The notes under the pieces were generated by a model, which did no database searches, was not told the origin of the DNA, and saw nothing but the letters and a program-made list of their open reading frames with translations. Below are positions 14,656 to 49,062 of a stretch of 64,000 nucleotides of DNA, one piece after another. The translations under genes and the position numbers were made by a program. The stretch's first letter is position 1. The number at the start of each line of letters is the position of its first letter. Source of the DNA: Nitrososphaerota archaeon (lineage in GTDB: Archaea; Thermoproteota; Nitrososphaeria; Nitrososphaerales; Nitrosopumilaceae); NCBI GenBank assembly GCA_028867275.1, contig JAGWGU010000001.1, positions 62,001 through 126,000 of the forward strand. The letters are read 5' to 3'.

Positions 14656-15816
14656 GTGAAACGCACAGCTGCTGATATACGAAAGTCAATAGAATCAAAC
14701 TGGAAGGAATATCTCTCACGTTACGGTAACCTGTTTTCCTCTAATCACATTGACGGTTCCTCTCCTCCCTCTGTCTTTGTTGGCGCATATGGGTACCCCA
14801 AAGTTCTGGTCGGCCCCATGTTACCTCCTGTTCATGGTGATACAATGATCTTAGACTCGCCAGAAAAATGGACTGGCAAGAGTCTTGAGGATATAGTAAA
14901 CTATAGGCTAAGTTTGGTTCGTGGGATAAAACCTGTAAAAGTAGGAGATGTGGGGCAGAGATACATTGAGAGCCTCCAGGAAATGTCCATGTCTGAAAGA
15001 TCAACTGATGCAGAAATGGAACTGGTGAAAAACGCATCCCCTATAGCTTCAGTTGACGGAGACAGCCCTATCTTTGGACCAATTGGGGAGATAAAGTCTG
15101 CCAAGTTTACAAGCTCGTCGTCTGACAAAAACATACAGCGTACGTTCTATGACAAGGATCTTTTGGCCCAGGATGCAATGGTCGAGCTTTACAACAGGGG
15201 CATCGAAATTTCAAGAATCCAAAAATGTTTCAGCATTGGAATGTTTGGCAAAGAAAGAAAGCTTGTCCCAACCAGGTGGAGCATCACTGCAACAGACGAT
15301 GTTCTCTCAAAATCGCTTGTAGAAAAAATAATCGAGTATGAAATTCTGGACACTTCTCTAGTGTTTTCATATAATCATCTGGGAAACTTTTTCTCCGTAA
15401 TCATGTTTCCAAGCAGATGGATGTTTGAAATGCAAGAGGCATGGTATGATGAGCAGGGAAATGTGGGGTTTGGATCTGATTTTGAAGATATCAAAGGGCT
15501 CAAACACTATCCAGAAACTGCAGGGGCACACTTTGCCTCAAGGCTTGCAGTGTCAGAATATCTTACCCAAAATAAAATTCAAGCAGCAGTAATGGTGCTT
15601 CGTGAAATAAGACCTGAGTATGCAGTGCCAGTTGGTGTCTGGCAAGTGCGGGAAGGAGTCCGCATGGCCATGAAACAAAAACCGTTGGTGGTTCCCAATT
15701 TTCAAGAGGGGCTTGATGCTGCATGCAAGGGTCTGAGCATTGGAAAAAAAGAATGGCTTGCTCACAGCAAACTGTATTTGGCAAAAAAACAAAAATCAAT
15801 ATCTGATTTTTTCTAG
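14656..15816 (+). CDS. Nre-family DNA repair protein with PCNA-binding tail
   Basis: A 386-residue archaeal Nre (NreA/NreB-like) protein, a family linked to DNA-damage resistance. Family features are SVFVGAYGYPKVLVGPMLPP (~37-56), VNYRLSLVRG, EIKSAKFTSSS and RKLVPTRWSITATDD (~197-211), and near the C-terminus GVWQVREGVRMAM. The last eight residues, QKSISDFF, fit the QxxhxxFF PCNA-interacting box, as known for haloarchaeal Nre proteins. Start is GTG at 14656. The enzymatic activity of Nre is unsettled; the PCNA tail places it at replication or repair sites. Confidence 0.9.
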   Translation: MKRTAADIRKSIESNWKEYLSRYGNLFSSNHIDGSSPPSVFVGAYGYPKVLVGPMLPPVHGDTMILDSPEKWTGKSLEDIVNYRLSLVRGIKPVKVGDVGQRYIESLQEMSMSERSTDAEMELVKNASPIASVDGDSPIFGPIGEIKSAKFTSSSSDKNIQRTFYDKDLLAQDAMVELYNRGIEISRIQKCFSIGMFGKERKLVPTRWSITATDDVLSKSLVEKIIEYEILDTSLVFSYNHLGNFFSVIMFPSRWMFEMQEAWYDEQGNVGFGSDFEDIKGLKHYPETAGAHFASRLAVSEYLTQNKIQAAVMVLREIRPEYAVPVGVWQVREGVRMAMKQKPLVVPNFQEGLDAACKGLSIGKKEWLAHSKLYLAKKQKSISDFF

Positions 15817-15832: not shown

Positions 15833-16804
15833 TTGACACACTTTGGACCTAATTTATTGCAAAACAAAAGTGTCATCTTTGCACTGGCAATAATTGCATC
15901 TCCTATATTGTTTGCATTGATAGTGTTTCCTAATACGTTTAGCCTTGGATGGAACCAAGGCAGAGGAGGATTTCTTTTTGCAATGGCCTTCATAGCTGCA
16001 GAACTAATTGGCCTGAAATTAGAAATTCCAAAGAAACGTTTGCTTGCAATAATTCCACTTGCAGCTGCAGTAATTGTATATCTGACTGGCTTAGAATTTG
16101 GCTTGAAAGATTACCTGATTTCTGCTGCTCCTAGTTTCCATGTTCTACTAAAGGACTCTTGGACATGGATGTGGGACTTTATCGTAATTGCAGCCTTTTT
16201 CATGGCAAGCATGACAATTCTGTTTGGCAAGAGATGGATTAGAATATCTCCCGCTGGCCCGATATATGCAGCAGGCACTGCAATCATTTTGTCACTTGAT
16301 GCATTTTTCCCGTATGACTCTCTAGGCCCACTGCAATACGTTGTACCATATCTTGTAAAGATTGATGTCTTTTTGATCACCCTGTTCCACTTGGGGTTGG
16401 CCACCTCTCATGGAAATGTCATGTTCCTCAGTGGAGACCATGGTCCGTTTGCATTACAGGTATTCTGGCCCTCTGCAGGTGTACACAGCATCATAATCTA
16501 TTCTCTTGTGATGATGGCATTTTTGCTAAAGATGAATATCCCACGAAACCGCAAGATTGCCTACTATGTTATGGGCGTAGTGGGAACAATAACTGTAAAC
16601 GTAATTAGGATTCTCTCACTGTCAATTTTTGTCCTAAAGGTGTCTACCAACGTAAATGAATTTGAGTCATTTCATGGTATTGCAGGAGAGATAATGTTCC
16701 TACCTTGGCTCTTCATATTCTTACTCATAGTCACATATGTTGAAACAAAACGCATCAAAAAAAAACTAGGGGTAGTGAAAAATGAACCAGATCAAAGTAA
16801 ATAA
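15833..16804 (+). CDS. Archaeosortase/exosortase-family membrane protein with Ser in place of catalytic Cys
   Basis: A 323-residue polytopic protein (about eight or nine membrane helices), TTG start at 15833. The C-terminal third carries the three exosortase/archaeosortase signatures in order: FWPSAGVHS (211-219), corresponding to the usual xCSGxxS box; NVIRI (256-260) with the conserved Arg259; and SFHGIAGE (279-286) with His281. The usual nucleophile Cys is Ser214 (TCT at 16472-16474). Family members cleave C-terminal sorting signals of surface proteins and may attach a lipid. The next gene, an HExxH protein, overlaps by 23 bases. Thaumarchaeal surface proteins with C-terminal TM anchors (for example 42537-43721) are candidate substrates. 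Confidence 0.82.
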   Translation: MTHFGPNLLQNKSVIFALAIIASPILFALIVFPNTFSLGWNQGRGGFLFAMAFIAAELIGLKLEIPKKRLLAIIPLAAAVIVYLTGLEFGLKDYLISAAPSFHVLLKDSWTWMWDFIVIAAFFMASMTILFGKRWIRISPAGPIYAAGTAIILSLDAFFPYDSLGPLQYVVPYLVKIDVFLITLFHLGLATSHGNVMFLSGDHGPFALQVFWPSAGVHSIIIYSLVMMAFLLKMNIPRNRKIAYYVMGVVGTITVNVIRILSLSIFVLKVSTNVNEFESFHGIAGEIMFLPWLFIFLLIVTYVETKRIKKKLGVVKNEPDQSK

Positions 16805-17267
16805 TGATGTAGAAAACGGCGTATACAGCATCGAAGAAATTTTTGAAAATCTAAAAGATACCGATGTTCTTTTAAAAATATTTGAAACAAAAGAAAACCT
16901 TGATGATGTGTTTAAAAACACATCTGTCATTGTAAATGAAAGTACACATTACATGCATGTGCAAAACGATGATGCGTCAATAGTGATAGGAAGAAACCAT
17001 CTTAAAAATTCTGAAAAAAAAGTTCTCTATCTTGATATAATTCATGAACTGGTGCATGTAAAACAGCAAAGACAGGGACTGGATCTTTATGACAAATCTT
17101 ATTCCTATGTTGATAGGCCTACCGAGATTGAAGCATATGCAATTGCAGTTGAGGAGGCAAGAAGGCTGGGAATGAATGACCGTGAAATATTTGACTATTT
17201 ACATGTGGAATGGATATCTGATGAGGAGCATAAACGGCTGGCATCAAGAGTAGGAATCTTGATCTAA
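16782..17267 (+). CDS. HExxH putative metallopeptidase coupled to the archaeosortase-like gene
   Basis: A 161-residue soluble protein with a zinc-peptidase helix DIIHELVHVKQQ (His88, Glu89, His92) and a downstream acidic stretch DRPTEIEAYA that could supply the third zinc ligand (Glu115 or Glu117), as in gluzincin-like or IrrE/SprT-type folds. No signal peptide, so it is cytoplasmic. Its ATG lies 23 bases inside the archaeosortase-like gene, which points to coupled translation. Peptidase activity is inferred from the motif. The 3' end overlaps the convergent dinB gene by 4 bases. Confidence 0.8.
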   Translation: MNQIKVNNDVENGVYSIEEIFENLKDTDVLLKIFETKENLDDVFKNTSVIVNESTHYMHVQNDDASIVIGRNHLKNSEKKVLYLDIIHELVHVKQQRQGLDLYDKSYSYVDRPTEIEAYAIAVEEARRLGMNDREIFDYLHVEWISDEEHKRLASRVGILI

Positions 17268-18358
17268 AAAAATCTTGTAATGTCTGCCTGTCCACTAGGT
17301 TGAGAAAAGTCAGAGACTCGCACACCTAGTCGTCTTATGAGCAATTGTTGGTCTTCAAGAGATTCTTTTAGCAGTTGAATTACAGTTTTTTTGAGCTCGT
17401 CAAGACTTGATGTGTGATTCCTAAGAGTCTTTGATTTTGTTTTGTTTGACAGGTCTGATTGGACAAATTGAATGCCAACTGATTTGAAAAGTATATTGTC
17501 TCTGACTATGGTTTCATGCAAGTCATCGCATAGTTTCTCCAAATCTTTTACAAGAAAATCAAAATCCTTGGAATCTTGCCTGAGTGTTACTATTCTGCTG
17601 TATTGGACGGGGTCGTGTCTTGGAGATACCGGCTCGTCATCTATTCCACGAGCTGCATTGTAAATGTAAGAGCCTATTTTTCTTCCAAACAATTCGTTTA
17701 GGGTAAAGACATCTACGCTGCGAAGCTGTAATATTGTATCAAGGTTCATTTCAGAAAACTTTTCCTCAGATTTTTTGCCTATTCCTGGAATTGTTCTGAT
17801 TGGTAATGGGCCCAGAAACGATTCGATGTCTTGAGGCTCTACGATGGTGAGGCCATCTGGTTTCTTGTATCCTGACGCAATCTTGGCGACAAGTTTGTTT
17901 GAGGATACTCCTATGGTACTTGAGAGCTTTATTGTAGTGCGTAACGAATTCTTGAGTTGTTGTGCCAAATGTGCTGCATTTTTAAAACCATGACCTGTCC
18001 TCTCTGTGACATCAAGATACGCCTCATCTCTTCCAACGTACTCAAAGATATCTGCATGGCTTTTTATTATGTTCATGGCATTTTCTGACACTTCGCTATA
18101 GTATTCAAAATCGGTTGGCAAAAAAACTGCCTCTGGAACGTCTGCTAGCTTCTTTTTTGCAAACTTGATTGGCATTCCAGAATTGACGCCATATTTTCTT
18201 GCCAAATAGTTTGCAGTTGCAATTGCTCCGCTGTCGCCTCCTCTGTCTGAATATACGCATACAGCTACAGGTCTTGTTTTTAGGTCTGGTCTGCGTATCT
18301 CTTCGCACTGGGCAAAAAAATAATCAAAGTCAATATGACATATTACTCTGTCAGTCAC
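17264..18358 (-). CDS. dinB: Y-family translesion DNA polymerase (DinB/Dpo4 type)
   Basis: A 364-residue Pol IV-like polymerase that copies past lesions. Catalytic motifs: HIDFDYFFAQCEE (Asp9; the steric-gate position holds Phe-Phe), and YVGRDEAYLDVT with the acidic pair DE, where the usual S-I-D-E reads G-R-D-E. The helix-hairpin-helix IRTIPGIGKKSEEKFSEM and the little-finger domain follow. The C-terminus QADITRFF is a PCNA-interacting box. Length is normal for Dpo4. It is convergent with the HExxH gene. Confidence 0.94.
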   Translation of the reverse strand: MTDRVICHIDFDYFFAQCEEIRRPDLKTRPVAVCVYSDRGGDSGAIATANYLARKYGVNSGMPIKFAKKKLADVPEAVFLPTDFEYYSEVSENAMNIIKSHADIFEYVGRDEAYLDVTERTGHGFKNAAHLAQQLKNSLRTTIKLSSTIGVSSNKLVAKIASGYKKPDGLTIVEPQDIESFLGPLPIRTIPGIGKKSEEKFSEMNLDTILQLRSVDVFTLNELFGRKIGSYIYNAARGIDDEPVSPRHDPVQYSRIVTLRQDSKDFDFLVKDLEKLCDDLHETIVRDNILFKSVGIQFVQSDLSNKTKSKTLRNHTSSLDELKKTVIQLLKESLEDQQLLIRRLGVRVSDFSQPSGQADITRFF

Positions 18359-48489: not shown

Positions 48490-49062
48490 ATGCTTAACAA
48501 CTTTAGAGAAGGCCTCAAGCCTGCCTTGCAAAACATTGGCAAAGTTTTTGCCGCAACAGGACTGTCTGCAGATTTCTGGACTGCCATAGGACTAGGCTTT
48601 GCATTTGCATCTGCACTAGTTTACGCAATTCATTTAGAATATTCTTTTGTTTTGGGAGGTATCCTGTTGCTTGTTTCAGGATTTTTTGACATTGTTGATG
48701 GCCAGGTGGCACGCATCACCGGAAAGACATCTAAAAAAGGAGCATTTCTTGATTCTGTCTTTGACAAGATTGCAGAAGTTGCAATATTTCTTGGAATTCT
48801 AATTGGTGGTTACCAACAAGGCTATCTTGTACTGTTGGCAATAGGATTGTCTCTGCTTGTGAGCTACACTAGGGCAAGAGCTGAATCGCTTGGAGTTCAG
48901 CTCCAAGGTATCGGCATAGGTGAGCGTGCAGAAAGACTGCTTGTAATTGCAATAGTTGGAATGATTGGTTTTCTAAACTATGCTGTAATTATTGTTGCAA
49001 TAATTGCGGGGATTACATTTGTTCAGAGAATAATAACAACAGCTCACGGAATAAAAGACTAG
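48490..49062 (+). CDS. CDP-alcohol phosphatidyltransferase (likely archaetidylinositol phosphate synthase)
   Basis: A 190-residue integral membrane enzyme with about six helices. The CDP-alcohol motif D-x2-D-G-x2-A-R-x8-G-x3-D-x3-D is complete: DIVDGQVARITGKTSKKG then AFLDSVFDKIAE (residues ~60-90). These enzymes swap CMP of a CDP-activated lipid for an alcohol. An inositol-1-phosphate synthase is encoded at 23481, so the alcohol may be inositol-1-phosphate; other head groups cannot be excluded. Its end is 1 base from the convergent eS26 gene. Confidence 0.92.
   Translation: MLNNFREGLKPALQNIGKVFAATGLSADFWTAIGLGFAFASALVYAIHLEYSFVLGGILLLVSGFFDIVDGQVARITGKTSKKGAFLDSVFDKIAEVAIFLGILIGGYQQGYLVLLAIGLSLLVSYTRARAESLGVQLQGIGIGERAERLLVIAIVGMIGFLNYAVIIVAIIAGITFVQRIITTAHGIKD

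Follow-up and report, generated by a model that had tools for sequence, protein, structure and literature searches.

The 64,000-nucleotide stretch of DNA analysed here (the window) encodes a thaumarchaeosortase with Ser in the column where exosortases and archaeosortases have their nucleophile and, directly behind it, a small HExxH protein. The explanation that we favour, and consider likely, is that the first protein is a PEFG-CTERM sortase with a Ser nucleophile and that the second is the product of a laterally acquired, non-essential neighbour gene. The features on which this explanation is based are listed in Table 1.

In an NCBIfam profile search the upstream protein matched the thaumarchaeosortase family TIGR04297 with 474 bits against a cut-off of 250 (E = 2.3e-142), and the match was full-length, with residues 15-312 aligned to positions 1-298 of the 307 in the profile. 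The superfamily signature TIGR04178 (exosortase/archaeosortase) was also scored above its cut-off (41.5 bits against 23, E = 1.2e-10); this membership is based on the profile score, and with it we make no claim that the sortase is a Cys-type enzyme. The Pfam model Exosortase_EpsH (PF09721) gave 20.9 bits, under its gathering score of 25.7. The NCBIfam scores bear out the first-pass annotation, which had called the protein archaeosortase-like and had mentioned a recognised thaumarchaeal subfamily: the subfamily exists as TIGR04297, with PEFG-CTERM (TIGR04296) as its partner signal. Judged by its sequence, the window sortase is an ordinary member of this curated family. It contains the motifs WPSAGVHS, N-V-I-R-I and F-H, and it has the conserved motifs and the partner signal of the other thaumarchaeosortases with no essential difference, whereas the HExxH gene behind it is foreign to the family's usual neighbourhood. 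One family member elsewhere (L069 in genome G133) is a thaumarchaeosortase frame with a long low-complexity C-terminal tail made of GAADAE and GKAADSGPGP repeats.

The named relatives of the sortase locus belong to Candidatus Nitrosotalea, and we assign the sortase to a Nitrosotalea species, an ammonia-oxidising archaeon. Because the TTG that opens the longest frame is not kept in other Nitrosotalea, and they have a start codon where the second TTG stands, the natural protein is probably 315 residues long and not 323. With the second start, the residues called Ser214, Arg259 and His281 in this text become Ser206, Arg251 and His273, each number being lower by eight.

Table 1. Features of the sortase/HExxH locus, in window coordinates.
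Feature	Position	Strand	Basis or remark
NreA-like DNA-repair protein gene, directly upstream	14656..15816	+	Pfam Nre_N/Nre_C; order conserved
Longest ORF, sortase	15833-16804	+	open; 323 aa; start TTG 15833
Thaumarchaeosortase gene, probable start TTG 15857	15857..16804	+	TIGR04297 474 bits; start judged from homologues
Ser codon TCT, nucleophile column of exosortases/archaeosortases (WPSAG)	16472..16474	+	Ser in 96/96 thaumarchaeosortases
Arg codon AGG, invariant Arg259	16607..16609	+	97/97 aligned sequences
His codon CAT, invariant His281, third conserved position	16673..16675	+	97/97 aligned sequences
Overlap of sortase and HExxH frames, 23 nt	16782..16804	+	direct reading
HExxH protein gene, 161 aa, soluble, predicted zincin-like fold	16782..17267	+	AlphaFold2 pLDDT 95.5
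HELVH zinc-binding motif codons	17043..17057	+	direct reading and alignments
Glu115, proposed third zinc ligand (E-x-x-A-Y, following helix)	17124..17126	+	invariant in 57 sequences
DNA polymerase IV gene, convergent, flanks HExxH insertion point	17264..18358	-	profile search; directly after sortase in other genera

The Ser codon and the codons for the conserved Arg and His, all three pointed out in the first pass, were read directly in the window. Our alignment held 97 sequences from the class, namely 96 thaumarchaeosortases and, as row 97, a remote relative with Cys in the motif (WPCAG). Ser was present in every thaumarchaeosortase, at identities down to about 30%, and Arg and His were present in every sequence. 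The Cys of Cys-type relatives within the class (PACAG, GPCTG, PGCSS, WPCAG) shares its column with the thaumarchaeosortase Ser. Thus, in place of the Cys nucleophile of the superfamily, the window sortase and all 96 family members have Ser, and the other residues expected of the superfamily, a conserved Arg and a third conserved Arg or His, are present as Arg259 and His281. When 400 genomes of the class were scanned at the codon level, the Ser motif turned up in 237, by a positive-control pattern that counted TCN serines as distinct from AGY serines, and the Cys motif in one. This sole Cys match (G213:C51), a candidate Cys-type thaumarchaeosortase, proved to be a short spurious frame and no sortase. 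The Ser is thus fixed throughout the family and is neither an error nor particular to the window genome. The first pass had raised the prospect that homologues would show Cys here and that the window carried a sequence error; since Ser is common to the whole thaumarchaeosortase family, a sequencing error at this codon is ruled out. The predicted structure of the sortase is of modest quality (pLDDT 79, falling below 50 at residues 212-215), and the model found no structural match in the PDB.

One could envision that the change from Cys to Ser has made the thaumarchaeosortase a non-catalytic protein that binds or chaperones PEFG-CTERM tails. Loss of the Cys nucleophile is a frequent mark of inactivated enzymes, and the literature that we searched contained no report of thaumarchaeosortase activity. 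We nevertheless consider this reading very unlikely because drift would be expected at a site that has lost its activity, yet Ser, Arg and His have all been kept; a second group in the class, marked by the motif GEPSSG, likewise has Ser together with conserved Arg and His. In this exosortase-like group (L149, L151, L152, L153, L156 and L157), found in Nitrososphaeria families f2 and f3, the Ser replaces the usual Cys at the same column; its members are 670-755 aa long where complete, weakly resemble XrtD/XrtW, and have both a CxxC pair and an extended C-terminal portion. One genome of genus g5 (G015) encodes a second, Cys-type exosortase (L150; PACAG, 259 aa) alongside a Ser-type thaumarchaeosortase and the HExxH gene. 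In the portions of the literature accessible to our search, the term 'thaumarchaeosortase' was not found, and PEFG-CTERM was mentioned, in one case with the enzyme left untreated. Haft's founding paper of 2012 may well already have noted the Ser.

The partner signal of the family is present in the same genome. Fourteen proteins, candidate substrates of the sortase, scored above the TIGR04296 cut-off, and most of those that we read begin with a signal-like segment and have VPEFG, a hydrophobic stretch and K/R. Among 250 genomes of the class, the sortase was found in 171 and PEFG-CTERM in 165; 163 genomes had both, 8 had the sortase only, 2 had PEFG only (each about 85% complete) and 77 had neither. 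In the other large family, f3, 12 of the 14 genomes that carry the sortase have PEFG proteins, against none of the 21 that lack it, though the relatedness of the genomes would make a formal p-value unsafe. The co-occurrence reflects shared ancestry in part. Eight genomes (G165, G170, G188, G194, G213, G248, G004 and G006) contain sortase relatives and no PEFG-CTERM match above the cut-off; a diverged signal is possible in them.

The best reading of these sequence data is a serine-based PEFG-CTERM processing enzyme. Most likely, the thaumarchaeosortase is a multi-pass membrane enzyme that cuts the C-terminal PEFG-TM-basic signal off secreted surface proteins, the putative nucleophile being Ser in place of Cys and acting with the conserved Arg and His; we infer both the catalysis by Ser and the identity of the bond that is cut. 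The characterized comparison is ArtA of Haloferax volcanii, in which Cys173, Arg214 and Arg253 are critical (PMC9263693). The two proteins are alike in the superfamily signature TIGR04178, in being multi-pass membrane proteins, in a conserved Arg and in having tripartite C-terminal signals encoded in the sortase's own genome. They differ in that the window sortase has Ser for Cys173 and His for Arg253, and in that its system uses a PEFG signal whereas that of ArtA uses a PGF signal; Arg259 is taken here as the presumptive counterpart of Arg214 and His281 as that of Arg253. The mechanism proposed for ArtA has a thioester acyl-enzyme that is attacked and resolved by an amine, that of archaetidylethanolamine (PMC7157517). 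By analogy, the intermediate expected here would be an oxygen-ester acyl-enzyme, to be resolved by some acceptor or by water. In Haloferax, homologues of PssA and PssD are linked to the lipid anchoring that archaeosortases bring about, whereas a search of the present genome found no phosphatidylserine decarboxylase homologue (PF02666), a result open to some doubt in an assembly that is 96% complete. Because of this absence, archaetidylethanolamine is probably not the acceptor used here. The whole genome (G000) has a single CDP-alcohol transferase, at a locus (L260) near window positions 48604-49008.

The downstream frame, its HELVH motif and its overlap with the sortase frame were as the first pass had described them. 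In the predicted structure, H88, E89, H92 and E115, which are invariant in 57 sequences, lie on helices (residues 79-97 and 113-128). In gluzincins HExxH is joined by a Glu on a following helix as third ligand, and it is by comparison with them that Glu115 is assigned its putative role as a ligand. The protein would be a small, soluble, gluzincin-like zinc peptidase, its zinc binding being predicted. Because it has no hydrophobic segment (maximum Kyte-Doolittle value 0.23 over 19 residues), we expect it to be cytosolic. For archaeosortases, an outward-facing active site is predicted (PMC4343526), which makes a direct joint reaction of the two proteins unlikely; at most, the cytosolic tail or the supply of substrate proteins could be a target of the HExxH protein.

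No Pfam or NCBIfam model describes the HExxH protein, and we take its homologues to form an uncatalogued family of small peptidases spread over bacteria and archaea. A Foldseek search of the PDB found nothing at E <= 0.001, its best hit having E 0.018 and no TM-score exceeding 0.54, and the best PDB match by sequence was not significant (E 0.44). The weak fold matches agreed in kind, comprising the zinc peptidase 3c37, selecase, jannalysin, the DPC-repair protease 6mdw and BlaR1. With the minigluzincins (selecase, jannalysin, abylysin) and SprT/Spartan, the protein has in common a small, predicted HExxH zincin architecture with a following Glu helix and weak structural similarity; it is larger than the archaeal minigluzincins, at 161 against about 110 aa, and, unlike them and SprT, has the conserved motifs YLDIIHELVHVKQ and RPTEIEAY. 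It also resembles Peptidase_M78 (IrrE/ImmA, PF06114) in having HExxH followed by an E-x-E-A region (Pfam E 0.0033), but the score of 17.6 bits is under the gathering score of 22, and there is no HTH partner. In other archaea, the HExxH domain is fused to a GNAT acetyltransferase at three loci (L119, L121, L123), and the HExxH gene is adjacent to a GNAT acetyltransferase gene at four (L244, L246, L250, L258).

These fold relatives raise the question of whether the HExxH protein, in the manner of the Spartan/Wss1 proteases, serves in the quality control of DNA or of proteins and merely shares a transcript with the sortase. Its fold weakly resembles 6mdw/6mdx, which concern protease-dependent DPC repair, and the archaeal minigluzincins selecase and jannalysin; this points that way, as do the DNA-repair neighbours, NreA upstream and Pol IV downstream. 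Wss1 and Spartan have themselves been called minigluzincins (PMC4559962), which we counted in favour of this reading. We think it quite unlikely, given the low significance of the fold matches and the fact that no DNA-binding part was seen in the HExxH protein. In addition, the order of NreA, sortase and Pol IV occurs without the HExxH gene, and no repair genes recurred beside HExxH homologues elsewhere in the neighbour clusters.

The distribution of the HExxH gene is far narrower than that of the sortase. Of 250 genomes, 53 gave homologues, a few of which were at noise level; in genus g1 and the related g5 and g18 all strong copies directly follow the sortase, whereas no credible copy was found in the 120 sortase-bearing genomes from other genera of family f1. 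Scanning named genomes, we found the gene directly behind the sortase in all 37 loci of the Nitrosotalea group (Nitrosopumilales), at 58% identity or more, and a thaumarchaeosortase in the flanks of none of the 43 other HExxH loci. The first pass had asked whether the neighbour is conserved across Nitrososphaerota or occurs in this genome only. Conservation stands for the Nitrosotalea group, which also disposes of the single-genome case, and it does not extend to the other f1 genomes. The idea that the HExxH protein is a general partner of the sortase has to be given up, since most thaumarchaeosortase genomes lack the HExxH gene and homologues elsewhere are not beside a thaumarchaeosortase. 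Nor is the gene an obligatory component of the sorting system.

Genera without the HExxH gene mostly keep NreA, sortase and Pol IV in this order, so the best reading is that the gene was inserted between those for the sortase and Pol IV in a locus that is stable in other respects. Its nearest relatives outside the lineage are deltaproteobacterial (about 50% identity), and in the tree the Nitrosotalea-group copies join these with 98/98 support, apart from the other archaeal homologues. Lateral transfer is therefore the likely origin of the gene, with the ancestor of the Nitrosotalea group as the putative recipient. The flanks of the deltaproteobacterial genes, searched with the window sortase, contained no match to it; a divergent bacterial exosortase may have escaped this search.

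In all linked loci the sortase and HExxH frames overlap, by 1-44 nt when ORF starts are set mechanically, and the two genes are probably translated together. This conserved overlap only suggests a joint function. If the two proteins do form one module, the sortase might release the TM-basic tail at the outer face, and the zinc peptidase might, in the cytosol, remove the stub of the tail or control the supply of surface proteins. In support of such a module, adjacency and overlap have been kept throughout the 37 Nitrosotalea-group loci despite divergence of the HExxH protein to about 58% identity. Against it, the 120 f1 genomes noted above have the sortase and PEFG proteins with no credible HExxH homologue, HExxH homologues elsewhere lack a neighbouring thaumarchaeosortase and, in archaea, often accompany GNAT, and gene overlaps are common in small genomes. 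On balance we regard the module as tentative and somewhat unlikely. The fuller proposition, an active Ser-nucleophile branch of sortases together with a Nitrosotalea-acquired, co-translated cytosolic zinc peptidase that is active in surface-protein sorting, appears to us doubtful.

What we favour is the Ser-nucleophile sortase with a non-essential neighbour, and its two parts differ in reach. The HExxH finding is the narrower, concerning a lineage-specific gene, probably of lateral origin, in a gene order that is stable elsewhere. If Ser is the nucleophile, one superfamily would contain both Cys- and Ser-type sorting enzymes, and thaumarchaeosortases would offer a natural test of the exosortase/archaeosortase mechanism, the intermediate being an ester and not a thioester. 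If true, this would also give insight into the maturation of surface proteins in ammonia-oxidising archaea.
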